Of a DNA stretch of 64,000 nucleotides, positions 31,060-50,692 are shown piece after piece (within the stretch, counting starts at the first letter, position 1; the number at the start of each line of letters is the position of its first letter). A model generated the notes under the pieces. It worked only from the letters and a program-made list of their open reading frames with translations, made no database searches and was not told the origin of the DNA. The stretch is taken from contig NZ_JXCJ01000001.1 of assembly GCF_000832015.1 (NCBI RefSeq), positions 2,166,225-2,230,224 on the forward strand, read 5' to 3'. The position numbers and the translations under genes are program-made. This stretch comes from Gilvimarinus agarilyticus (GTDB lineage: Bacteria; Pseudomonadota; Gammaproteobacteria; Pseudomonadales; Cellvibrionaceae).

Positions 31060-34000
31060 ATGTATAACAAAGTAAGCTTTAAGCGAAAGTTGATCGCGAC
31101 CGCGGTCGCGTCTTGTGCGTTGTCAGGCGCTAGTGGCCTGACTTTCGCGCAAGACGATCAAATGCTGGAAGAAGTGGTTGTTACTGGTATCCGCGCATCG
31201 CTCGAGCGCTCAATGGATATCAAGCGAGATTCATCGGGCGTTGTCGATGCGATCTCTGCAGAAGATATTGGTAAATTCCCTGACAGTAACCTTGCAGAAT
31301 CGCTGCAACGTATCACGGGTGTGTCGATCGACCGTCGTAACGGCGAGGGCTCCAACGTAACTATCCGCGGCTTTGGCGGTGAGAATAACCTGGTTACTTT
31401 GAATGGGCGTCACATGCCAGCGGCCAGCGCCTATGGTGGCGGTAGTGGCTCTGGTGGTACCCGTAACTTTGGCTCTCGTTCGTTCGACTTTGCAAACCTT
31501 GCTTCCGAGGCGGTACGGGGTATTCAAGTTTATAAAACCGGTAAGGCTAATGTGTCTACTGGTGGTATCGGTGGTACGGTCAATATTCAGACTACGCGTC
31601 CACTCGACAATCCTGGTCTCTCCCTTAGTGTTGGTGCCAAAGCGCTGCACGACACTACTGTTAGCGACTCTCAAGATGACATCACCCCGGAACTCTCCGG
31701 TTTGGTGAGCTGGACGGACGACAACGAAATGTTTGGCGTGTCCTTGTCAGCCAGTTACCAAGAGCGTGATTTTAGCTTTGCCGGTGCGGGTCTTAACGAC
31801 TGGAATATCGCGACCTGGGATGGTCCTGAAGGTAGCTTGTACTCGTTTGCTGATGACTACGAGCTGGTTAATGCACCAGATCAGGGTCAGCTTTACGCCC
31901 GCCCGAACGACATTCGATTAAGCTACTCGGAAAGCCACCGTGAGCGTACCAATGCTCAGCTGACTCTGCAGTTCCGTCCGGTAGATGACATTACCATGAC
32001 GGCTGACTACACATTTGCCGAGAACCATATTCAAGAGCACCGCGGCGAACAAACCTTTTGGTTTGCAAATGGCCAGAGTGTGGATTATTTAGAATTCGAC
32101 GATTCAGGCGTGGCAACACCTCTAATCTATTCTGAAGTTCTCACTAACAAAGACAACGGCTACGAGCAGCAGTATCGAGATCAAACCAATACGTTAGAGT
32201 CGCTTGGCTTTAATGTTGAGTGGAACGTAACTGATAACTTCTCGGTACGTTTAGATGCTCACGACTCATCTATGGAGAGTCTGCCCACTGCTCCGGGCGG
32301 AACGGGCTCGCTTGATGTGAGTGTGGCTGCACCTATTCACGCGTCTCAGCGGGCTTATTTTGGTGCCGATTTGCCAACAGTGGCAACCACCATCAATGAT
32401 TCTAATACCAATAACAATGGTATGTGGGATCTGAACGACTTTGGTACCCAAATGGGACGTATCTGGTACGCTGACCAGGTAACTGATATTTCTCAGGTTA
32501 AGTTAGAAGGTACCTTAGAGTTTGATAATGGACGCTTTGATTTTGGTGTTGAGTCTCGCTCCATGGAAACCACCAGTAAGCAATCTAACAATCAGCTAGT
32601 GTTGGGTAACTGGGGGGTGAATGATGCGGGCCAAATCGATGATGGTCTGCTGCGTGAATTTGATATGCGTAGTAAGTTTGAAGATTACGACATGTCAAAC
32701 CATCAGGCATATGCGGTGCGAGCAACCGACCCCGTTGCCTTGATGACTTGGGCGACCGACACGTATAACTATCCATTTGAAGTGGCTCAGCCATTTACCA
32801 CCAATAACGACCTTAAAGAAGACACTCAGGCTGTGTTCTTACAAGCATCCTTTGATGGTGCTTTGGGTGATATGACCACCAAGTTAACCGCTGGTGTTCG
32901 TTATGAAACTACAGATGTCGATTCGTCGTCACTGGTAGCCGCGCCATTATGGCTGACCTGGAACGATAACAATGATTTCTTGACTGAGACTGATGGTGTA
33001 GAGGCGCAGCCTTACTCCGTAGAGGCGAGTTACGACAACTTGTTGCCTAGCCTGGACTTCAGTATCGACCTAACTGATGACGTTGTGAGTCGTTTCTCGT
33101 ACAGCAAAACGATTGCGCGCGCCGGCTACGGGTCATTGGCGGTGTCCGCCAGTAACTTTGCTACCGTTGGTTCTACTTATTTAGGTACCCAGCCAACTGC
33201 ACAAGCCTCTAATCCAGGGTTGTTACCACTTGAGTCGGATAACTTTGACGTGTCGTTTGAGTGGTATTACAACGATGCAAGCTATGCGTCTGTTGCGTTC
33301 TTTGAGAAGCGGGTAGCTAACTTTATTGGGCAAGAGCAGGTATTGACGACTCACTTTGGCATTAAGGATCAGACCAATGGCCCGCGGATTCGTGCTGCAG
33401 CGGACGCGTTGGAAGCCGAAGGTATGGCATTGAACGATACCAACTTGTTCGTGATGATGGGTGTGCTAGAGCATCCCGGTGAGTTTGGTACTCCTTCGGA
33501 CATTGAGCGTGATGGCAACCAGGTAACCCCTGAATATCAAGGTCAAGTCGTTGATTATGTAGCCGGTTTGACGCCTTATGAGGGGATTATTCCCGCTGAT
33601 GGCGATCCAGAAATGGAGTTTCTAACGGCAACACCAACCAACAACCGTGAAGCAAAGTTGTATGGTTCTGAGCTTGCTATTCAGCACTTCTTTGGTGAGA
33701 CTGGCTTTGGTGTGCAGGCAAACTACACCATCGTACGCGGTGATGTAGGCTTTGATGATCTGGCTGACCCCAGTGAATCGCAGTTTGCATTGACAGGTCT
33801 GAGTGACTCCGCCAACTTGATTCTGATGTATGAGAATTACGGTGTTTCCGCTCGCTTGGCCTATAACTGGCGTGACGAATTCTTGAATGAAACCAACCGT
33901 GGTAACGGCAATAACCCGACTTACGTCGAAGCCTACAGCCAAGTTGATATGAATGTAAGCTATGACATTTCGGATAACTTTACCGTGTTCTTAGAGGGCA

Positions 34001-34110
34001 TCAATATCACGGAAGAAAATACTCGACATCACGGCCGCTCTGAAGCCCAGTTGTGGTACTTGGAGGATATGGGTGCTCGCTACGCTCTGGGTGGTCGTTA
34101 CACCTTCTAA
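31060..34110 (+). CDS. TonB-dependent receptor (carbohydrate type)
   Basis: A 1016-residue outer-membrane transporter. A signal peptide is cleaved near TFAQ-DDQ. The TonB box and plug start DDQMLEEVVVTGIRASLERSMDIKR; the plug continues GKFPDSNLAESLQRITGVSIDRR and NVTIRGFG (about residues 33-175). A 22-strand barrel ends in the terminal Phe of GGRYTF. The IRASLERS/IKRDSSGVVDAISAEDIGKFPD pattern is that of the large receptors in carbohydrate-utilisation loci of Xanthomonas, Caulobacter and Cellvibrionales. Strong ribosome-binding site (AAAGGAGAG). It heads the SapC/cupin/halogenase genes, with an intrinsic terminator between. Substrate unknown; nearby GH3 and PL14-like genes point to a glycan. 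Confidence 0.93.
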   Translation: MYNKVSFKRKLIATAVASCALSGASGLTFAQDDQMLEEVVVTGIRASLERSMDIKRDSSGVVDAISAEDIGKFPDSNLAESLQRITGVSIDRRNGEGSNVTIRGFGGENNLVTLNGRHMPAASAYGGGSGSGGTRNFGSRSFDFANLASEAVRGIQVYKTGKANVSTGGIGGTVNIQTTRPLDNPGLSLSVGAKALHDTTVSDSQDDITPELSGLVSWTDDNEMFGVSLSASYQERDFSFAGAGLNDWNIATWDGPEGSLYSFADDYELVNAPDQGQLYARPNDIRLSYSESHRERTNAQLTLQFRPVDDITMTADYTFAENHIQEHRGEQTFWFANGQSVDYLEFDDSGVATPLIYSEVLTNKDNGYEQQYRDQTNTLESLGFNVEWNVTDNFSVRLDAHDSSMESLPTAPGGTGSLDVSVAAPIHASQRAYFGADLPTVATTINDSNTNNNGMWDLNDFGTQMGRIWYADQVTDISQVKLEGTLEFDNGRFDFGVESRSMETTSKQSNNQLVLGNWGVNDAGQIDDGLLREFDMRSKFEDYDMSNHQAYAVRATDPVALMTWATDTYNYPFEVAQPFTTNNDLKEDTQAVFLQASFDGALGDMTTKLTAGVRYETTDVDSSSLVAAPLWLTWNDNNDFLTETDGVEAQPYSVEASYDNLLPSLDFSIDLTDDVVSRFSYSKTIARAGYGSLAVSASNFATVGSTYLGTQPTAQASNPGLLPLESDNFDVSFEWYYNDASYASVAFFEKRVANFIGQEQVLTTHFGIKDQTNGPRIRAAADALEAEGMALNDTNLFVMMGVLEHPGEFGTPSDIERDGNQVTPEYQGQVVDYVAGLTPYEGIIPADGDPEMEFLTATPTNNREAKLYGSELAIQHFFGETGFGVQANYTIVRGDVGFDDLADPSESQFALTGLSDSANLILMYENYGVSARLAYNWRDEFLNETNRGNGNNPTYVEAYSQVDMNVSYDISDNFTVFLEGINITEENTRHHGRSEAQLWYLEDMGARYALGGRYTF

Positions 34111-34135
34111 AGCTAGTTTTTTGCAGTACTCTAAA

Positions 34136-34161
34136 GCCGCTGATTTTTCAGCGGCTTTTTT
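34136..34161 (+). terminator. Intrinsic terminator after the TonB receptor gene
   Basis: GCCGCTGA, loop TTTT, then TCAGCGGC followed by six T. It lies between the receptor and the sapC gene, so downstream genes need read-through or their own promoter in 34162-34249. Confidence 0.88.
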
Positions 34162-34249
34162 ATTTTCGCCTCTTTTGTTGCCGCGCTCTGTGTGGTTCAA
34201 TAAAGGAAAGCATTAATCAATTATTATAATAAGTTTGACTGGAGCGCTT

Positions 34250-34981
34250 ATGACGAAGCATGTAGTGCTGAATAATATTGAACACAAGGACCTTAGAATC
34301 ATCGAAGATTACTCGGAAAAATACGGAGATGATGTCAATAGCGTCCTTACTTTTCCTACCGAGTTTTCGGATATTCAGCGGAATTACCCAATTTTGTTTA
34401 AAAAGAGCGCTGATGCTGGTGTGTATCAGCCTATTGCTTTGCTGGGGCTGGAAAAAAACGAGAATTTATTTTTACATGAGCCGGATTGGCGCGCTAGCTA
34501 TGTGCCGAGCGTTCAGTCTAGAGGGCCATTTCTTATTGGTTTTCAAGAACGGGAGGCAGATGGCGAAATACGTCGCGAGCCGATTATTCATGTGGATATT
34601 GAAGACCCTAGGGTAAATGAAAAATATGGTTCATCTGTTTTTAAAGAGCATGGTGGGAATACCGCTTACCTTGAAAAAATGGTTGGTACTTTACAGAGAA
34701 TTCATCAGGGGCTGTCAGCCAATAAAGTCATGTCGGCAGAGTTCGAGCGTTTAGAGTTGTTCGAGCCTGTGAGTTTGGAAATTGAGGTTCACAAAGAACA
34801 TGTTTATAAGATTTCTAACTTTTATACGATTAATACAGATAAGTTGGCGGCGCTACGGGGCGAGACGCTAGAGCGCTTGCACCAATCAGGGTTCTTGCAG
34901 TGCGCAACCTTTGCCGTGGCGTCGTTGGCAAATATTAATTCACTCATTGAGTTAAAGCGGAGTAGACTGCTTGAGCAATAA
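34250..34981 (+). CDS. SapC-family protein
   Basis: A 243-residue soluble protein. The ATG at 34250 has GGAG 10 bp upstream; a TTG at 34235 is also in frame. The SapC pattern is VVLNNIEHKDLRI, then SVLTFPTEFSDIQRNYPILFKKS, LLGLEKNENLFL, WRASYVPSVQSRGPFLIG and EPIIHVDIEDPRV, ending in FASLANINSLIELKRSR-like sequence. SapC was named from Campylobacter S-layer work. In many Proteobacteria it is the constant companion of TonB receptors and Trp halogenases, with no proven activity. Second gene of the receptor locus; 18 bp before the cupin gene. Confidence 0.88.
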   Translation: MTKHVVLNNIEHKDLRIIEDYSEKYGDDVNSVLTFPTEFSDIQRNYPILFKKSADAGVYQPIALLGLEKNENLFLHEPDWRASYVPSVQSRGPFLIGFQEREADGEIRREPIIHVDIEDPRVNEKYGSSVFKEHGGNTAYLEKMVGTLQRIHQGLSANKVMSAEFERLELFEPVSLEIEVHKEHVYKISNFYTINTDKLAALRGETLERLHQSGFLQCATFAVASLANINSLIELKRSRLLEQ

Positions 34982-34999
34982 GCTCAAATAGAGGAAGTA

Positions 35000-36037
35000 A
35001 TGATGAAGCCGGTTACAGATAAGAGGGCGCGTACGCTAAACGGTGTTGAGTGGGACGCCATCCCTTTTGCTGAGCTTATTGCAGGGCAGCAGCCGGTCGT
35101 GTTAAAGGGCGCGGTGCGTGATTGGGAGTTGGTTAAAGCGGCCGGGCATTCATCCGGCAGGGTGGTGGAATATTTAAAGTCATTTTATAACGGGAAAACC
35201 GTGGCGACGTATTTGGCGGATGCGTCAGAAAAAGGTCGGTATGCTTATACGCACGATCTTGCGGCCCTCAATTTTTCGACAAAGCGACTGCCTCTGGATG
35301 CTGTGCTAGACGAAATTCTGACCCATAAAAATGATCCCGCTCCTCCAGGAATCTATGTTGGATCAACGACGATTGATGCTTGCTTGCCGGGCCTGCGCAA
35401 AGAGAATGACTTACTGTTTGATGACATAATGTTTGCAGAGCACTCGCCTTTAGCAAGTATTTGGCTGGGTAATGCCTCACTAATATCGGCCCATTATGAT
35501 GCGCCTAATAATATTGCTTGTTGTGCAGTGGGTAAACGCCGGTTTACTCTGTTCCCACCTTCACAAATTCACAACCTTTATCCCGGCCCTTTGGAGCCCA
35601 CGCCGGGCGGACAGGCTATTAGTATGGTGGACTTCGCCAACCCCGACTTTACTAAGCATCCCAGGTTTAAGAGGGCACTTGAGACGGCCCTGGTGGCAGA
35701 GCTTGAGCCAGGGGATGCCTTGTTTTATCCGAGTATGTGGTGGCACCAAGTTGAAGCATTAGAGTCACTAAATGTATTAATTAATTATTGGTGGAGTACA
35801 TCACCTAAATATATGGGCACGCCCATGAACGTTTTGATGCATAGCCTTTTGAGCCTTCGGGACAGGCCGAAAGAGGAGAAGCAAGCCTGGAGGGATGTGT
35901 TTGATTATTACATTTTCGGCGACTCCGAAAGTCCTGTGGAACACTTGCCGGAGCATGCCTGGGGGGATCTTGGCCCATTGGATGATGTGAAAGCTCGTAA
36001 GTTACGTGCCTACTTATTAAACCGTCTCAACCGTTAA
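35000..36037 (+). CDS. JmjC-like cupin (cupin_8) oxygenase
   Basis: A 345-residue protein preceded by GAGGAAG. The double-stranded beta-helix core shows the iron-binding HxD in SAHYDAPNN (about residue 163) and the distal His in SMWWHQVEAL (about 250), plus the Lys/Arg-rich KRRFTLFPP segment after the facial triad start. These are the cupin_8/FIH-like 2-oxoglutarate Fe(II) hydroxylases. In SapC/halogenase loci this member is nearly always present; its substrate, protein or small molecule, is unknown. It lies 18 bp after sapC and 28 bp before the halogenase gene. Confidence 0.9.
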   Translation: MMKPVTDKRARTLNGVEWDAIPFAELIAGQQPVVLKGAVRDWELVKAAGHSSGRVVEYLKSFYNGKTVATYLADASEKGRYAYTHDLAALNFSTKRLPLDAVLDEILTHKNDPAPPGIYVGSTTIDACLPGLRKENDLLFDDIMFAEHSPLASIWLGNASLISAHYDAPNNIACCAVGKRRFTLFPPSQIHNLYPGPLEPTPGGQAISMVDFANPDFTKHPRFKRALETALVAELEPGDALFYPSMWWHQVEALESLNVLINYWWSTSPKYMGTPMNVLMHSLLSLRDRPKEEKQAWRDVFDYYIFGDSESPVEHLPEHAWGDLGPLDDVKARKLRAYLLNRLNR

Positions 36038-36065
36038 TGTTTGCCATAATTAAGAGAGATTACTT

Positions 36066-37562
36066 TTGCACTCTAAGCCTGTAAGAAAAGTCGTAATTGC
36101 CGGTGGTGGAACTGCTGGTTGGATCGCTGCTGCAGCATTGTCTCGCCAGCTTGGTGAGTTGCTGGACATTACGCTAGTCGAATCTGATGATATTGGCACT
36201 GTGGGTGTTGGTGAAGCGTCCATACCGACAATGAAGACTTTTCATAAGCTACTGAAAATTAGCGAGCAGGAGTTTATGAGATGTACCGAGGCGACATTCA
36301 AGCTCGGAATATCTTTTGAAAACTGGAAAGATGTGGGCAAGTCTTATATTCACTCGTTTGGTAAAACTGGTAAAGAAACCTGGCTCGGAGAGTTTCATCA
36401 TTTTTGGTTGCGTGCACGTGAGCTTGGCTTTGGTGAGGATTTTGGCGATTATTGTTTAGAGTTGCAAGCCGCCCGCGAGGGTCGCTTTGCAACATCGGAA
36501 CAATCGGACATTAATTATGCGTATCACCTGGATGCCAGCCGCTATGCCAAGTTTTTACGGGGTATAGCAGAAAAAGAAGGCGTGCACCGTGTTGAGGGTA
36601 AAATTTCGCAGGTACAGCAGGATCACGAGACCGGCGACATCGTGGCGTTGCAGTTGGACTCGGGCGAGCGGCTGGAAGGTGATTTATTTATCGACTGCAC
36701 AGGCTTTCGCGGGTTACTGATCGAGCAAACCCTACACACTGGCTACGAAGATTGGAGTCATTGGCTCCCGTGCGATAGGGCGGTGGCTGTTCAAACAAGC
36801 AGCACTCAAGCGGCTGTGCCTTATACAAGGTCCATTGCCCAGGATTCTGGTTGGCAGTGGCAAATACCTTTGCAGCATCGAATGGGAAATGGTCTGGTCT
36901 ACTGCAGTGCTTACATGTCTGATGAGCAGGCTCAGGCGGCGTTGTTGGCTAACATTTCCGGGGATCGCTTAACGGAGCCCCGATTGATTAAATTTCGTAC
37001 CGGTCGCCGCCGTAAAGTGTGGAATAAAAACTGTGTTGCGCTTGGGTTGGCGGCGGGCTTCTTGGAGCCCTTAGAGTCGACGAGTATTCATCTGATTATG
37101 ATTGGCGTGACCCGATTGTTGCAGTTGTTCCCATTTAATGGCTGTCATACGAGCTTGGTGAATCAATTTAATCAGGTTTCAGCCGATGAAATGGAAAAGA
37201 TTCGTGATTTCATTGTGCTGCACTACAAAGTCACGCAGCGCGCCGATTCGGCTTTTTGGCGTCAGTGTGCTCAGATGGAGGTGCCCGAATCTCTGGCCCA
37301 TCGCTTGGAGCTGTTTAAGTCTGATGCTCAAGCTTATCAAACCGATAGTGAGTTATTTAGGGTCGACTCCTGGACTCAAGTAATGCTGGGGCAGGGGTTG
37401 ATGCCAGATGATTATCACCCGGTGGCACGAGCTATGGGTGATGAGTATTTAAAGAAGTTTATGCTTGAGTACCGTCAGTCTTTGCAAAAAATGGTGCAGA
37501 GCATGCCTCTGCACCATGAATTTATCGCCCAATATTGTTCCAGTAGTCCCGGCCGGGACTGA
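36066..37562 (+). CDS. Flavin-dependent tryptophan-halogenase family protein
   Basis: A 498-residue protein with a TTG start and GAGAG upstream. The FAD-binding GGGTAGW is at residues 13-19. The catalytic lysine is Lys79 in ATFKLGISF, the same number as in PrnA and RebH. The halogenase signature WQWQIP is at 263-268, and the catalytic glutamate region EPLEST has Glu337-Ser338. All key residues are present, so a hypohalous-acid-based halogenase activity is plausible. Related enzymes next to TonB receptors in Xanthomonas and Brevundimonas prefer bromide and free indoles. It needs reduced FAD from a partner reductase not seen here. The natural substrate is unknown. Confidence 0.92.
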   Translation: MHSKPVRKVVIAGGGTAGWIAAAALSRQLGELLDITLVESDDIGTVGVGEASIPTMKTFHKLLKISEQEFMRCTEATFKLGISFENWKDVGKSYIHSFGKTGKETWLGEFHHFWLRARELGFGEDFGDYCLELQAAREGRFATSEQSDINYAYHLDASRYAKFLRGIAEKEGVHRVEGKISQVQQDHETGDIVALQLDSGERLEGDLFIDCTGFRGLLIEQTLHTGYEDWSHWLPCDRAVAVQTSSTQAAVPYTRSIAQDSGWQWQIPLQHRMGNGLVYCSAYMSDEQAQAALLANISGDRLTEPRLIKFRTGRRRKVWNKNCVALGLAAGFLEPLESTSIHLIMIGVTRLLQLFPFNGCHTSLVNQFNQVSADEMEKIRDFIVLHYKVTQRADSAFWRQCAQMEVPESLAHRLELFKSDAQAYQTDSELFRVDSWTQVMLGQGLMPDDYHPVARAMGDEYLKKFMLEYRQSLQKMVQSMPLHHEFIAQYCSSSPGRD

Positions 37563-37566
37563 TGTC

Positions 37567-38286
37567 ATGAACTTTCGGTTACCAGATGACATTACAGTGA
37601 AAGCGCTCGAGTTTGGTCGTGAGTGTTCGCCTTTACTGGTTATAGACCAGTGTATTGACCGCCCTGAGGTGTTGGTCGAATTGGCCAGTGAGTGCGAGTT
37701 TTCCCCGCCTAAGCAGGCTTTCCCGGGCGTTAGGGCGGTAGCTCCAGAGGCCTATCAGGCGTATTTGGCGCTTACGTTGTTTCCTCATTTGGCTGTTGCT
37801 TTACAGCCGTTATTGCAAACCCACTTTTCGCTTACTGGAGATCGGGTCCGGTTTTCAATGTGTCACTATTCATTGGTGACAACGCCCGCGACGCAGTTGG
37901 GCATGATTCAACGGATTCCCCACGTCGATTCGTTTGACTCCCAAGGGCTTGCGACGGTGCATTACCTGTTTCGTAAACCTCTGGGCGGTACTGCCTTTTA
38001 CCGACATCGAAAAACCGGGTTTGAGGTGATAAACGAGTCGCGAAAGCGTGAATACTTTCGTTCTCTCGAGGCCGAGAACGCAGGCCCGGATCTACCAGAG
38101 TCTGGGTATATTAACGGTGATACCCCACTTTTTGAGCAAATAACGCGGCAAGAAGCAGTGTATAACCGAATGCTGATTTATCGTCGTAGCTCGCTGCACT
38201 CCGGCTGTATTGATCCAGCCTTTGTGCCCGATGCCAATCCGGCTACTGGGCGGTTGTCCATTAATTCATTTATCGACATCCTGTAA
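37567..38286 (+). CDS. DUF6445 protein, 2OG-Fe(II) oxygenase-like
   Basis: A 239-residue protein; the ATG at 37567 lies 4 bp after the halogenase stop, so it is coupled. Residues around QRIPHVDSFDSQGLATVHYLF contain HxD, and SSLHSGCI near the C-terminus supplies the distal His with RLSIN following. This is the arrangement of a prolyl-hydroxylase-like iron oxygenase fold. The family (DUF6445) is uncharacterised and recurs in TonB receptor/SapC/halogenase operons. It is the last gene of the unit, with no clear terminator after it. Confidence 0.82.
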   Translation: MNFRLPDDITVKALEFGRECSPLLVIDQCIDRPEVLVELASECEFSPPKQAFPGVRAVAPEAYQAYLALTLFPHLAVALQPLLQTHFSLTGDRVRFSMCHYSLVTTPATQLGMIQRIPHVDSFDSQGLATVHYLFRKPLGGTAFYRHRKTGFEVINESRKREYFRSLEAENAGPDLPESGYINGDTPLFEQITRQEAVYNRMLIYRRSSLHSGCIDPAFVPDANPATGRLSINSFIDIL

Positions 38287-38925: not shown

Positions 38926-41499
38926 ATGGCTATTAACTCCTTTCAGCGCCTGACTTTGGCTGGGGCCGTGATGGCTGCTCTGGTCGGTTGTCAAACCCAA
39001 TCTGACTCATCTCAATCAAGCGCTAAAACGACTAAAGTTACCTGGCCCGCCATTGAGAGTGAGGTTCAGAAAGACCCTGCAATTGAGGCCCGAATCGACG
39101 AGTTGTTGTCCCAGATGACGCTTGAAGAAAAAGTGGGACAGATGATCCAGCCTGAAATTAAGCAGGTAACCCCCGACGATATCCGCGATTACCATATTGG
39201 CTCGGTACTTAACGGCGGGGGCACTACACCGGACAATAACAAGTATGCGAGTGTCCAGGACTGGGTGGATTTGGCGGATAGTTATTACTACGCCTCCATT
39301 GATAAATCCGATGGCCGTACCGGCGTGCCCATTATCTGGGGTACCGATGCGGTACACGGCGTGGGTAATGTTGTCGGTGCGACTTTGTTTCCTCACAACA
39401 TTGCCCTGGGCGCAACCCATAACCCTGATTTATTAGAGCAAATTGGCTGGGTAACAGGCCGCGAGCTTAAAATCACCGGTATCGACTGGAACTTCTCTCC
39501 CACGGTTGCCGTTTCGCGCGACGAGCGTTGGGGCCGCGCCTATGAGGCCTGGTCGGAAGACCCAGAGCTGGTTGGGCAATACGCCGGCCGGATGATTCGG
39601 GGCTTGCAGGGCGAGCCAAAATCGGACGACTTCCTAAGCGAAGATCATGTTATTGCCACCGCTAAGCACTTTATCGGTGACGGCGGTACGGATAAAGGTA
39701 TCGACCGTGGCGACACTATCGCCACAGAAGAGCAGCTGCGCGATATTCACGGTGCGGGTTACTTCACCGCAATCGAAGCGGGCGTACAAGTGGTTATGGC
39801 ATCGTTCACCTCGTGGGAGGGCACGCGAATGCACGGCCACGAATACTTGCTAAGTGATGTATTGAAAGGCCAAATGGGTTTTGATGGCTTTATTGTCGGC
39901 GACTGGAGCGGTCACGGCTTTATTCCGGGCTGTACCGCGCTCGACTGCCCACAGGCGGTAAATGCGGGTTTGGATATCTATATGGCGCCCGAGCCAGAGT
40001 GGAAGGAGCTGTTTGCCAGCACGGTCAAGCACGCTGAAGATGGCACTATTCCGATGGCGCGGATCGATGACGCCGTGCGCCGTATCCTGCGCGTTAAACT
40101 GCGGGCCGGGTTATTCGAAGCGGGCCCACCCTCAGAGCGAGGCATAGCCGGTCGCGACGATTTGTTAGGCGCCCCCGAGCATCGAGAGGTGGCTCGCCAG
40201 GCGGTACGTGAATCGTTGGTTTTGCTTAAAAATAACGATGGCCTATTACCCCTGAGCCGTGACATCAATGTGCTGGTGACCGGTGATGGTGCCGATAACA
40301 TTGGCAAGCAGGCCGGCGGCTGGTCGGTTACCTGGCAGGGTACGGGTAATAAGAATTCGGACTTCCCCGGTGCGACTTCCATTTATGACGGTATTGCCGA
40401 GGCGGTAGAGGCTGGCGGCGGCACTGCCGAGCTCAGTGCTAACGGCACTTTTATGGAAAAGCCCGATGTGGCAATTGTTGTGTTTGGCGAAGACCCCTAC
40501 GCCGAAATGCAGGGCGACTTGACCAACCTGATGTACAAGGGTGGCTCTGAGGCGGACTTAAACCTGCTTAAATCTTTCCAGAAGCAGGATATCCCGGTGG
40601 TGGCGTTGTTTATTACGGGCCGCCCGTTGTGGGTTAACCGCGAACTGAATGCCTCGGATGCTTTTATGGTGATTTGGCAGCCTGGTACCGAGGGTGGAGG
40701 TGTTGCTGATGTTGTGTTTCGCGCCAACGACGGCTCGATTAACCACGACGCGAAAGGCCGATTGTCGTTCAGCTGGCCTGAGCGCCCCGATCAGTACCTG
40801 TTAAACCGTGGTGATGAAGACTACAACCCGCTGTTCCCTTATGGTTTTGGCTTAAGCTACGCGGACAAGGACACCCTGGGTGATGAGCTGTCAGAGAAGG
40901 GCCTTAAAAAAGCAGCCACTCAGGATGTATTGGAGTTGTTTAACCGTCGTCCGCTCGATCCATGGGGCATTGAGGCCGTTGGCGCCGAAAATGACCGCGC
41001 GGTAATGAACAGTAACACCCTTCAAACCTCAACCGTCTTGGTCGAAGCGGTAGATCGTAATGAGCAGCAAGACGCTCGCCGCGTGGTGTTTAACGGTGAG
41101 GGGCCCGGTCATGTCGCGCTGTTTGCTGATGATCGTCAGGATTGGAGCGATTATGTAAAAGCAAAATCGGCCCTGTCATTTGATATCAAAGTTGATAAAG
41201 CGCCTACTGAGACGACTTATCTGCGTCTTGGCTGCGGCTCTTATTGCGCTTCTGATATTGATATGACGCAAGGCATGCGTGATCACCTTGCCGGGGCCGG
41301 CTGGCAAACCGTAACCGTAGATTTGGCGTGCTTCCCAGATGCGGGTGAAAACTTTGGTTTAAATCAGCCGCAGTCTGAGTACATTACTCAGGTGGTTCGT
41401 CCGTTTACTATTTATACCACGGGTGAGCTGGAGATGAGCTTTGCCAATGTACGTTTGCTTAAAGGGCGTGCTGCGAGTGCGATGGTGAGTTGCCAGTAA
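38926..41499 (+). CDS. GH3 exo-beta-glucosidase lipoprotein
   Basis: An 857-residue protein. A lipoprotein signal peptide ends in LVGC (Cys22). The GH3 N-terminal barrel begins SQMTLEEKVGQMIQPE and includes KHFIGDGGT and the nucleophile Asp in GFIVGDWSGHG. The GH3 C-terminal domain (about 410-640) has VRESLVLLKNNDGLLPL and the acid/base region VFGEDPYAEMQGD. A C-terminal galactose-binding-like domain (about 690-857) is typical of ExoP/CdxA-type 1,3-1,4-beta-glucan exohydrolases. It would release glucose from oligosaccharides at the cell surface or periplasm. It stands downstream of the TonB/halogenase genes with its own regulatory region and ends at a strong terminator. Confidence 0.93.
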   Translation: MAINSFQRLTLAGAVMAALVGCQTQSDSSQSSAKTTKVTWPAIESEVQKDPAIEARIDELLSQMTLEEKVGQMIQPEIKQVTPDDIRDYHIGSVLNGGGTTPDNNKYASVQDWVDLADSYYYASIDKSDGRTGVPIIWGTDAVHGVGNVVGATLFPHNIALGATHNPDLLEQIGWVTGRELKITGIDWNFSPTVAVSRDERWGRAYEAWSEDPELVGQYAGRMIRGLQGEPKSDDFLSEDHVIATAKHFIGDGGTDKGIDRGDTIATEEQLRDIHGAGYFTAIEAGVQVVMASFTSWEGTRMHGHEYLLSDVLKGQMGFDGFIVGDWSGHGFIPGCTALDCPQAVNAGLDIYMAPEPEWKELFASTVKHAEDGTIPMARIDDAVRRILRVKLRAGLFEAGPPSERGIAGRDDLLGAPEHREVARQAVRESLVLLKNNDGLLPLSRDINVLVTGDGADNIGKQAGGWSVTWQGTGNKNSDFPGATSIYDGIAEAVEAGGGTAELSANGTFMEKPDVAIVVFGEDPYAEMQGDLTNLMYKGGSEADLNLLKSFQKQDIPVVALFITGRPLWVNRELNASDAFMVIWQPGTEGGGVADVVFRANDGSINHDAKGRLSFSWPERPDQYLLNRGDEDYNPLFPYGFGLSYADKDTLGDELSEKGLKKAATQDVLELFNRRPLDPWGIEAVGAENDRAVMNSNTLQTSTVLVEAVDRNEQQDARRVVFNGEGPGHVALFADDRQDWSDYVKAKSALSFDIKVDKAPTETTYLRLGCGSYCASDIDMTQGMRDHLAGAGWQTVTVDLACFPDAGENFGLNQPQSEYITQVVRPFTIYTTGELEMSFANVRLLKGRAASAMVSCQ

Positions 41500-41554: not shown

Positions 41555-42361
41555 CTAATTGGCGTTGGAAATACTTAACCCATCAAACCACACCTTGGAT
41601 AAATACGCTGGGGCCCAGTCGGGCGTGTTGCCGCCATGAAACGTTGAAAACATAATGCCCCCGATGTATCCCGCCGGCGTGTCTGTTAAGCGGTAGCTCA
41701 TATCCTCGCGGTGCAGGATTTGTTTGCCATCAAACCAGACGGTTAGCTCGCCATTTTCCTGGCCTATTTCGTTGATTTTTATTTGCTGTGCCAGGCAGTG
41801 GCGTTGGCCGGGAATAAAGCGCGCGCCAAGCTCGATGTCCTGGCCCCACGGCTGTCCGCCGTAACGCCCGTTGGGTGAGGGGGGCAAATAGGCGTAAATA
41901 ACCGCGGCGCCATTCTCGCGCCACATATAGCGCATCGTCCAGCCGTTACTGCCGTTTGGTTGATTGCCCCCGGAGCGAGACCATGAGTCTTCGGCCCCCA
42001 TTAGGCCAGGTAGTTTTCCCCCTAGCACAAAATTAAAATCGCTAGAAAACGTAAGGCAGTAATTCAGGCGCAGTGCGGTATAGGAGGGCAATAAATCAGC
42101 CTGTTTCGCAAACTCGATGGGAAACTGAACTCCGCTCTGACCCGGGCCCACGCCAGCTTTTGGATAGCTTACCTGCAGCGAATGCTCGCCGGTCGGGTTT
42201 TGGGTGACAGTGGTGGTGTCAAGCCGGTCGTTCCAGCGTAGTTGCCATTGCCCTGGCCAGTTGGGCTCCGCAAATGAAAACGTTTTAAGCGGTGCCGCCG
42301 TGGCGAGCGGGGGCAATGTGGCGAGAAAAAAGCAGTTAGCGAGTAGGGTAGTCGGCTTCAC
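41555..42361 (-). CDS. Secreted polysaccharide-lyase-14-like protein
   Basis: A 268-residue protein with a GTG start and a signal peptide (to about residue 22, ATAA). The mature part is one beta-jelly-roll domain with ALRLNYCLTFSSDFNFVLGGKLPGLMG, GWTMRYMWRENGAAVIYAY, then WGQDIELGARFIPGQRHCLAQ, ending in TVWFDGKQILHREDMSYR. These motifs are those of the polysaccharide lyase 14 group of bacteria and fungi, which includes alginate and glucuronan-type lyases. Substrate not deducible. Convergent with the GH3 gene, so perhaps part of the same glycan-utilisation locus. Confidence 0.8.
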   Translation of the reverse strand: MKPTTLLANCFFLATLPPLATAAPLKTFSFAEPNWPGQWQLRWNDRLDTTTVTQNPTGEHSLQVSYPKAGVGPGQSGVQFPIEFAKQADLLPSYTALRLNYCLTFSSDFNFVLGGKLPGLMGAEDSWSRSGGNQPNGSNGWTMRYMWRENGAAVIYAYLPPSPNGRYGGQPWGQDIELGARFIPGQRHCLAQQIKINEIGQENGELTVWFDGKQILHREDMSYRLTDTPAGYIGGIMFSTFHGGNTPDWAPAYLSKVWFDGLSISNAN

Positions 42362-48084: not shown

Positions 48085-49266
48085 TTAGAGCTCGTCCGGA
48101 TCTTCCTCAGTTGGGTCGATTACTATTTTATTCTCTTCTGCCAGTTGCCGTAGTAGTTGTGTGTCTGTGTCATTTTGGCACAGCGCATCGAGCTCAGTGA
48201 GTGCCCACTGGCGCCGGTTGCTTAACGCCTCGGCGAGCGCTGAGCTACACGGGTAGCCCTGTCCGTCGACAAATAATGTTGTGCCAGCGCTGTCGTTAAC
48301 ATAGCAAAAGCGTGAGGCAATTTCACGCTCGGCCGGGACGTCTAGCGCCAGCCAGCTTTGCCAGGTTGCTGCGTCTATCTCGGTGGTGTGTTGCTCTTGC
48401 GGGTATTTGGCTTCGGTCATATACCGGCCAAACCATTGGGCCACATTGTCGGAGGTAAGGTGTTTGCTTAATGTGGCGACGATTTGCCGCACAACCTCGG
48501 CATCGATTGCGCCGGGCGTTTGTGTGGCTTGAATCTGTGGGTCACGGTAGCGTATGTCGTTGCTTAATGACGTACACAAATACTGACCAAATTCGCCGAT
48601 AATATCGGCCTCTGACGGGGCGCGAAAACCGATCGAAAAGGTCATGCAGTTGTCGTCCAGAGATGTACCCCAGTGGGCCGTGCCGGGCGGGATATAAAGG
48701 ACATCACCAGGCTTGGCGATATAAGTGGCGCTGGGGGTAAAATCACGCAGGATGTTTAACTCGGTGCCGGATACACGCTCGCTGGTGCTGTCGCAAGCCT
48801 GTCCGATTTGCCACTCACGGCAGCCGGCGCCTTGCACCAAAAACACATCGTAATAATCGAAGTGAGGGCCGACGCTGCCCCCAGTGGGGGCGTAACTTAC
48901 CATGACGTCATCGAGCCGCCAGTTGGGAATAAAACGAAACCGCTCGAGTAAATCGGCTACTTCGGGTACCCAGTGGTCTACCGCCTGTACCAACAAGCTC
49001 CAGCGCTCGGCGGGTAGCCGGGTAAAGTCCTGTTCAGTACAGGGGCCGGTTTTTAGCTGCCACGGGGCTTCATCCGAATCAATCACCAGGCGTGATTCGA
49101 TCTCGTCCTCCAGGGCTAGGCCGGCCAGCTCGTCCGGGCTTAATGGCGAGCTAAAGTCGGGCAAAGCCTGAGGGAGAAACACCGCTTCGCGCTGCCAGTA
49201 ACGGCTAAGGAACTCACTGATAGGGATTGAGCCCAGATGGGCAAGAGCCGGCGAGGCAGAAGACAT
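48085..49266 (-). CDS. roxA: Ribosomal protein uL16 3-hydroxylase (ribosomal oxygenase)
   Basis: A 393-residue JmjC cupin matching YcfD/RoxA. HxD is in GSVGPHFDYYDVFLVQ (about residue 131), the distal His is in YIPPGTAHWGTSLDD, and the 2OG-binding REWQIG lies between. The N-terminal LGSIPISEFLSRYWQREAVFLPQAL is the family lead, and a C-terminal winged-helix/dimer region follows. It hydroxylates an arginine in ribosomal protein uL16 in bacteria. It sits between purB and the GNAT gene, as in Pseudomonas. Confidence 0.92.
   Translation of the reverse strand: MSSASPALAHLGSIPISEFLSRYWQREAVFLPQALPDFSSPLSPDELAGLALEDEIESRLVIDSDEAPWQLKTGPCTEQDFTRLPAERWSLLVQAVDHWVPEVADLLERFRFIPNWRLDDVMVSYAPTGGSVGPHFDYYDVFLVQGAGCREWQIGQACDSTSERVSGTELNILRDFTPSATYIAKPGDVLYIPPGTAHWGTSLDDNCMTFSIGFRAPSEADIIGEFGQYLCTSLSNDIRYRDPQIQATQTPGAIDAEVVRQIVATLSKHLTSDNVAQWFGRYMTEAKYPQEQHTTEIDAATWQSWLALDVPAEREIASRFCYVNDSAGTTLFVDGQGYPCSSALAEALSNRRQWALTELDALCQNDTDTQLLRQLAEENKIVIDPTEEDPDEL

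Positions 49267-49312: not shown

Positions 49313-50692
<1,380 letters not shown>

Follow-up and report, generated by a model that had tools for sequence, protein, structure and literature searches.

Co-divergence of a TonB-dependent receptor and a flavin-dependent halogenase in polysaccharide-uptake loci, and a candidate receptor-tailoring gene set in Gilvimarinus agarilyticus

A 64,000-nucleotide stretch of the Gilvimarinus agarilyticus genome (contig NZ_JXCJ01000001.1, positions 2,166,225 to 2,230,224), referred to here as the window, contains a run of five genes encoding a TonB-dependent receptor, a SapC-family protein, a cupin, a flavin-dependent halogenase, and a DUF6445 protein. Comparisons between genomes show that the receptor and the halogenase of the type found in the window, type B, co-diverge specifically. 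The receptor is a candidate substrate, with halogenase B as its most likely modifier; oxidative tailoring of the receptor polypeptide in the cytoplasm, by a set dedicated to the receptor of a polysaccharide-uptake locus, is given a probability of roughly one in three. None of the gene families is new in itself, and the neighbourhood occurs widely, this being a polysaccharide-uptake locus with an added halogenase set. What is new here is the specific co-divergence of the receptor and halogenase B, together with a confident structural model of SapC that matches no solved fold. The features of the run are as follows.

31060..34110, + strand: TonB-dependent receptor, TIGR01782 (TonB-Xanth-Caul), 1016 amino acids, N-terminus signal-like (TIGR01782 685 bits, cut-off 310; Plug E 1.2e-17; barrel E 1.6e-22)
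34133..34158, + strand: terminator-like hairpin and T tail between the receptor and enzyme genes (11 pairs, 6 of them G-C)
34250..34981, + strand: SapC-family protein, 243 amino acids, N-terminus not signal-like (PF07277 E 1.9e-62, 211 bits, cut-off 28.9)
35000..36037, + strand: Cupin_8/JmjC protein, candidate Fe(II)/2-oxoglutarate oxygenase like FIH (factor inhibiting HIF), 345 amino acids (Cupin_8 E 5e-74; H165, D167, H249)
36066..37562, + strand: flavin-dependent halogenase, B type (WQWQIP, EPLESTS), 498 amino acids, TTG start (PF04820 658 bits; K79, E337)
37567..38286, + strand: DUF6445 protein, 239 amino acids, probable Fe(II)/2-oxoglutarate oxygenase fold by motif only (PF20043 E 4.2e-72)

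All five reading frames are intact and in the same direction, with the ends (31060-38286) that a preliminary description of this DNA had given. The receptor spans the whole TIGR01782 model (1-868 of 868) above the curated cut-off. The SapC start is the ATG at 34250, the listed open reading frame opening earlier at TTG 34235; the ATG at 37567 was taken as the start of DUF6445, and the TTG start of the halogenase is preceded by AAGAGAGA. The halogenase has a flavin adenine dinucleotide (FAD) motif GGGTAG at 13-18, WQWQIP at 263-268, and, as had been claimed, intact K79 and E337, its N-terminus starting straight at the FAD-binding strand. Its nearest relatives in the PDB are 6y1w (Xcc4156, E 1e-190) and 9luq (E 7e-170). 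By sequence it appears to be of the BrvH/Xcc4156 type, relatives for which halogenating activity on aromatics is known.

Related loci were collected around SapC as the best 80 of 220 relatives in named genomes, so that every count presupposes a SapC gene resembling that of the window. A halogenase is present in 77 of the 80, a cupin in 76, a receptor in 74, and DUF6445 in 26. The six loci that lack a receptor are cut by contig ends, SapC lying no more than 2.3 kb from where the locus begins; L061, L080, and L120, which have no halogenase, are real exceptions within the stretch covered. Halogenases upstream of SapC (type A) tend toward the motifs WxWDIG and EPLEASA, and those downstream (type B) toward WQW(R/Q)IP and EPLESTS. 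The window has type B and lacks type A. The catalytic Lys and Glu (K79/E337) are kept in all 66 upstream and all 74 downstream halogenases, types being assigned by position in these counts and both occurring downstream of SapC in a few loci. Under a strict chain rule, the commonest order is receptor-halogenase A-SapC-cupin-halogenase B (37 loci), followed by the same order plus DUF6445 (15 loci); the order of the window, in which the first halogenase is missing, is found in eight (five, and three with DUF6445). Represented among the loci are Alteromonadales, Cellvibrionales, Lysobacterales, Woeseiales, Burkholderiales, and one alphaproteobacterial metagenome-assembled genome.

Co-divergence was assessed in the 50 loci where the five-gene set is complete, using distance matrices in which each pair was partialled on the other three genes. 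The partial correlation of the receptor and halogenase B is 0.60 by p-distance, and with filtered columns 0.62 by p-distance, 0.73 by Kimura distance, and 0.78 by ranks. It is again 0.60 (interval 0.45-0.73) with 200 columns per gene and the loci resampled, and under residual permutation the value was matched in none of 2000 trials. Although halogenase A adjoins the receptor, its partial correlation with the receptor is -0.15 (-0.32 to 0.11). Other pairs gave 0.45 (0.25-0.57, halogenase A and cupin) and 0.33 (0.09-0.50, receptor and SapC). The receptor and halogenase B are the first and fifth genes, the two ends of the run, and B is the gene farthest from the receptor; neighbour linkage cannot explain such an interleaved pattern. 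In the 20 loci from outside the Alteromonadales, the receptor-B value is 0.79 and the receptor-cupin value 0.49.

Linkage of halogenase and receptor extends beyond SapC loci. In a census of five genomes, each searched in full (that of G. agarilyticus, G001, G061, G122, and G155), 50 of 56 halogenases have a TIGR01782 receptor within 6 kb, while the fraction of each genome that near to a receptor is 4-10 %, an upper estimate; 46 of these 50 are downstream on the strand of the receptor. The arrangement is more than chance. Seen from the receptor side, 39 of 101 lie within 6 kb of a halogenase. The G. agarilyticus genome alone has 17 full-length PF04820 matches, one of them degenerate, across 11 loci, with 24 TIGR01782 receptors over the cut-off and four each of SapC, DUF6445, and Cupin_8. 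Among halogenases distant from a receptor, G061:867 lies where a contig begins, a receptor and a halogenase being found at the other end of that contig, C1:190387 of G. agarilyticus adjoins a receptor scoring below the cut-off (L009:3310-6015), one in L215 lies 7.3 kb from a receptor within a cluster of glycoside hydrolases (GH) GH97 and GH31, and one in L216 is near GH43, these last families being named by Pfam. For two G001 halogenases (L214), no receptor was seen in a Pfam look at their surroundings. At L214:11995, G001 has a weak halogenase-like gene flanked by two strong halogenases. A degenerate gene also occurs in G. agarilyticus (L012:10386-11846, C1:830k), where the catalytic Lys/Glu motifs are gone and two intact halogenases flank it behind one receptor. 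In 114 genomes from across the class, with receptors counted over the cut-off and halogenases called at E 1e-80 or better, a halogenase is present in three of three genomes with receptors and in two of 111 without (Fisher 4e-5; 9e-4 excluding G. agarilyticus); such multi-genome searches scored only the best candidates per genome. Within the family, 138 of 144 genomes have a PF04820 match, weak matches counted. The SapC-locus counts and the census together bear out the suggestion that such sets recur beside carbohydrate-type receptors.

The neighbours of 81 SapC loci (the window included) were grouped by BLAST and each group was named from one representative; of the 12 groups that occur in at least five loci, 10 were scanned. 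They are GH3/Exop_C (44 of 81), the sugar transporter MFS_2 (26), GH1 (23), MFS_1 (22), GH16 (22), a LacI regulator (14), polysaccharide deacetylase (12), and GH94 (10). The presence of GH3, GH1, GH16, GH94, and sugar transporters points to the use of beta-glucan, and on these sequence matches the locus probably serves the uptake of this polysaccharide. In the window, the enzyme run is followed by:

38926..41499, + strand: GH3 glycosidase with Exop_C domain, 857 amino acids (GH3 E 6e-95, Exop_C E 6e-36)
41555-42361, - strand: polysaccharide lyase family 14 (PL14) protein adjoining the GH3 gene (profile match)

The GH3 gene is likely to be part of the same utilisation locus as the receptor.

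The oxidative enzymes of the set retain their catalytic residues. In the cupins of the SapC loci, each residue of the HxD...H iron triad (H165, D167, and H249) is conserved in 78 of 78. The best PDB relatives of the window cupin are FIH chains (E 2e-18), FIH being a JmjC protein hydroxylase that shares the metal triad; the cupin differs in being bacterial and in a likeness confined to residues 160-275. In DUF6445, H119, D121, H211, and R229 form an HxD...H...R pattern that is invariant in 32 of 32 members. In profile comparisons, 2OG-FeII_Oxy_3 is touched weakly by four of the 32 (best E 0.0019) and 2OG-FeII_Oxy_5 by three, hhalign to the cupin gives a probability of 0.6 %, and a profile search of the PDB found no relative, its two matches (best E 0.66) both being glutathione transferases. 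The earlier label 'oxygenase-like' is thus no more than plausible for DUF6445, as a predicted Fe(II)/2-oxoglutarate oxygenase. One other copy in G. agarilyticus (L031:5370-6098) is near an alkaline phosphatase and an SSF symporter, with no halogenase within the stretch fetched.

Tailoring of the receptor is ranked first because, SapC aside, no other non-enzyme partner is constant, because the many halogenases of one genome suggest many separate partners, and because the receptor and halogenase B co-diverge. With regard to partners, 14 of the 17 halogenases of G. agarilyticus have 31-55 % identity to that of the window, which fits many separate partners better than one common metabolite. In the proposed mechanism, the receptor precursor would be made in excess, aided by the partial terminator 3′ of its gene. 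Before export, the halogenase, supplied with FADH2 by an unlinked reductase, would halogenate or oxidise an aromatic side chain of the receptor in the cytoplasm; the FIH-like cupin and DUF6445 would hydroxylate further residues, and SapC would hold the substrate or pass it on. The reaction, its substrate, the role of SapC, the order of these steps, and any effect on uptake are inferred. A fuller version, in which each linked halogenase, with the oxygenases and SapC as adaptor, halogenates or hydroxylates its own receptor before export and so tunes glycan binding or hides the receptor from phages or toxins, is unlikely.

By a crude hydropathy rule, signal-like N-termini are present in 51 of 71 receptors and in 0 of 83 SapC, one of 78 cupin, and one of 24 DUF6445 proteins; this suggests a cytoplasmic location for the enzymes, the receptor going to the outer membrane. 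Of 69 gaps that separate a receptor gene from the enzyme genes, 36 contain a terminator-like hairpin (simple base shuffles predict 2.8), and such hairpins may hold expression of the enzymes beneath that of the receptor. Behind the receptors of several genera (L061, L067, L069, L074, L083, and L090), a hairpin of this kind with an AAGCCGCTG...CAGCGGCTT stem is seen again. The run had been described as compact, and its genes are co-directional; since the hairpin at 34133-34158 sits between receptor and SapC, a single transcript of the two cannot be assumed. A nearby flavin reductase, which had been suggested as something to look for, was not found: the sole PF01613 gene of the genome (C1:2930116) lies away from all 11 halogenase loci.

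Several observations weigh against receptor tailoring. On a tree of 101 receptors (built with FastTree, which gave long-branch warnings), 36 are followed in the same chain by a halogenase, 11 of them by SapC too, and the other 65 manage without a linked halogenase. Linkage is clustered on the tree (20 changes against a shuffled mean of 29.7, with 0 of 500 as low), and all 11 SapC receptors are inside one clade of 22; even so, it has been gained or lost often, with at least 20 changes. Co-divergence of the receptor and halogenase B is weaker in the 30 Alteromonadales loci, at 0.47, where the B-cupin and B-SapC values are 0.41 and 0.32. It is spread along the receptor with no single site, apart from a slight peak in mid-barrel, and may reflect only that the receptor and B are an old pair that took in an A-SapC-cupin cassette. 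Simple distances between receptors and their nearest halogenases correlate at r 0.40 over 36, and within genomes at 0.09 (G000), 0.11 (G061), and 0.49 (G122), so that agreement holds in one of three.

The search for a modified residue adds to these points. From 1365 column-residue pairs seen in at least 15 receptors, 147 were carried into 18 phylogenetically independent contrasts. In these, none followed the presence of the halogenase (the highest mean counts being 7.8:2.0, 5.4:0.7, and 4.5:0); a modification site on the receptor was therefore not found. The best raw Fisher values between linked and unlinked receptors were those of P953 (9e-7) and W937 (2.5e-5). However, W937, present in 27 of 36 linked and 20 of 65 unlinked receptors, gave only 2.5:0.5 in the contrasts. 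Likewise, W334 and W937 are present in 72 of 72 SapC-type receptors but failed the contrasts, and the SapC-clade receptors without a halogenase retain W334 in six of seven and W937 in five of seven. Of 23 Trp columns, the one that did best in the contrasts (4.0:0) is missing from the window receptor, and its Fisher p is 0.013. Trp content was also discarded as a sign of a target, at 1.52 against 1.39 per 100 residues in a plain comparison. Within the SapC clade (15 linked, seven unlinked), the sole residue flagged was N175 (13 of 15 against three of seven). This is a real negative, although service of unlinked receptors in trans could mask a signal and 18 pairs give low power. The suggestion that the receptor itself is modified is thus favoured by its co-divergence with halogenase B and disfavoured by the residue search, and the probability of receptor tailoring is kept well below one half because the target residue is missing and the linkage is labile.

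The main rival, ranked just below receptor tailoring and itself rather unlikely, is tailoring of a small molecule. The substrate would be an aromatic compound encountered along with the polysaccharide, or else a cellular indole or phenol; the reactions would serve signalling, defence, or degradation, and the receptor would import either the glycan or the product. Free indole and its derivatives are brominated by BrvH and Xcc4156. These enzymes do not accept free tryptophan, their native substrates are unknown, and a peptide has been proposed (PMC5945002; PMC7336383), points that speak for receptor tailoring. PDB flavin halogenases that share the fold mostly work, by their entry names, on small aromatics, and the halogenases of L215 and L216 are in sugar loci without an adjoining receptor. 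On the other hand, the authors of the BrvH study doubted indole as the substrate given the low activity, the GH3, GH16, GH1, and GH94 enzymes and sugar transporters of SapC loci indicate glucans, which are free of aromatic groups, the 10 scanned families out of 12 recurrent ones include no biosynthetic partner, and co-divergence of the receptor and halogenase B is left unexplained.

It is distinctly unlikely that the substrate is another protein or a peptide, whether SapC itself or a product encoded elsewhere, in the manner of MibH or QhpG. The open active site of BrvH has been compared to that of the peptide halogenase MibH (PMC5945002). SapC has near-invariant residues that include H12 (54 of 54 sequences), W80 (53 of 54), E38, E71, N72, and D116, and it is accompanied mainly by halogenase A, which the window lacks: SapC is present in eight of 11 census loci with type A and in three of 25 without (Fisher 7e-4, uncorrected for kinship). 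However, 25 of the 36 halogenase-bearing receptor loci have no SapC. The genes of the enzyme run are closely spaced, with median gaps of 10-36 bases and none above 202, so that a precursor-peptide gene inside it is unlikely; a pathway for ribosomally synthesised and post-translationally modified peptides was rejected for the run itself, small open reading frames outside it and distant precursors not having been searched. In G. agarilyticus (L014:8160-14039) and in G122 (L188), one type-A halogenase and SapC lie behind tandem receptors.

The name SapC hints at a role in surface-layer export. A role in presenting or recognising the product, put forward in the preliminary description, is so far unsupported: SapC keeps company mainly with halogenase A and is absent from 25 of the 36 receptor loci above. 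SapC is a soluble protein, and a model from 54 sequences reached a predicted local distance difference test score (pLDDT) of 95.5 and a predicted template modelling score (pTM) of 0.88, against a pLDDT of 54.6 for a model from four. Foldseek found no PDB match for the model at E 0.001 (best E 0.097, template modelling score 0.14), none of 994 re-aligned PDB chains reached Z 2, and a viral structure library gave nothing (best E 0.054); the sequence profile had one chance-level match in the PDB (E 0.34). As modelled, the fold is unmatched among the solved structures of the PDB and in the viral library, and a new fold is not claimed. One further SapC gene of G. agarilyticus (L030:5768-6511) is near a sigma-70-like gene, with no halogenase within the stretch fetched.

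Finally, it is very unlikely that the genes are linked without joint chemistry, as co-regulated passengers of carbohydrate loci (for example in redox or stress) held by shared regulation and transfer, as the lability of the association (20 changes) and the broken halogenase copy at L012 would allow, since catalytic residues are conserved across orders, as are gene order and tight spacing in Alteromonadales, Cellvibrionales, Burkholderiales, and others.

Flavoproteins that modify protein tryptophan are known in QhpG and LodB. The likeness of the window halogenase to these is weak (35.2 and 22.4 bits, far under the NCBIfam cut-offs of 240 and 400; E 4.6e-4 to QhpG, labelled peptidyl tryptophan dihydroxylase in PDB entry 7ctq), though the QhpG match counts for receptor tailoring, and they are linked to quinone-cofactor enzymes, whereas the window halogenase is linked to a receptor. 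BrvH (6frl) and Xcc4156 (6y1w), the closest solved relatives over the whole chain, share the catalytic Lys/Glu and WxWxIP but were studied singly on indoles; the main texts of those papers contain no mention of TonB and leave a receptor, SapC, or oxygenase context undiscussed. Ordinary proteobacterial polysaccharide utilisation loci with TIGR01782 receptors have the same receptor, GH3, GH16, GH1, GH94, and sugar transporters, and differ from loci of the window type in lacking the added halogenase, cupin, SapC, and DUF6445. Searches of an open-licence library found no paper that links receptor, SapC, and halogenase, and none that mentions DUF6445, PF20043, or PF07277; subscription journals may describe the set. 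An older idea of similar direction is the speculation in PMC11337851 on a halogenase role in virus-host receptor interactions. Elsewhere in the window, a protein with JmjC_2 and a ROXA-like winged helix (48085-49266, - strand) adjoins adenylosuccinate lyase (49313-50689); from its domains it looks like a YcfD/RoxA-type ribosomal oxygenase with no relation to the halogenase locus.

Orphan halogenases are abundant in the genomes of this family, and the receptor is now a candidate for their substrate; the nearest enzymes studied have no known native one. Were the receptor not the substrate, a small molecule tied to glucan use would be indicated. If it is, halogenation would be a protein modification in nutrient uptake, a categorically new system and the first protein-halogenating transport system, and the BrvH/Xcc4156 class would gain a native substrate.

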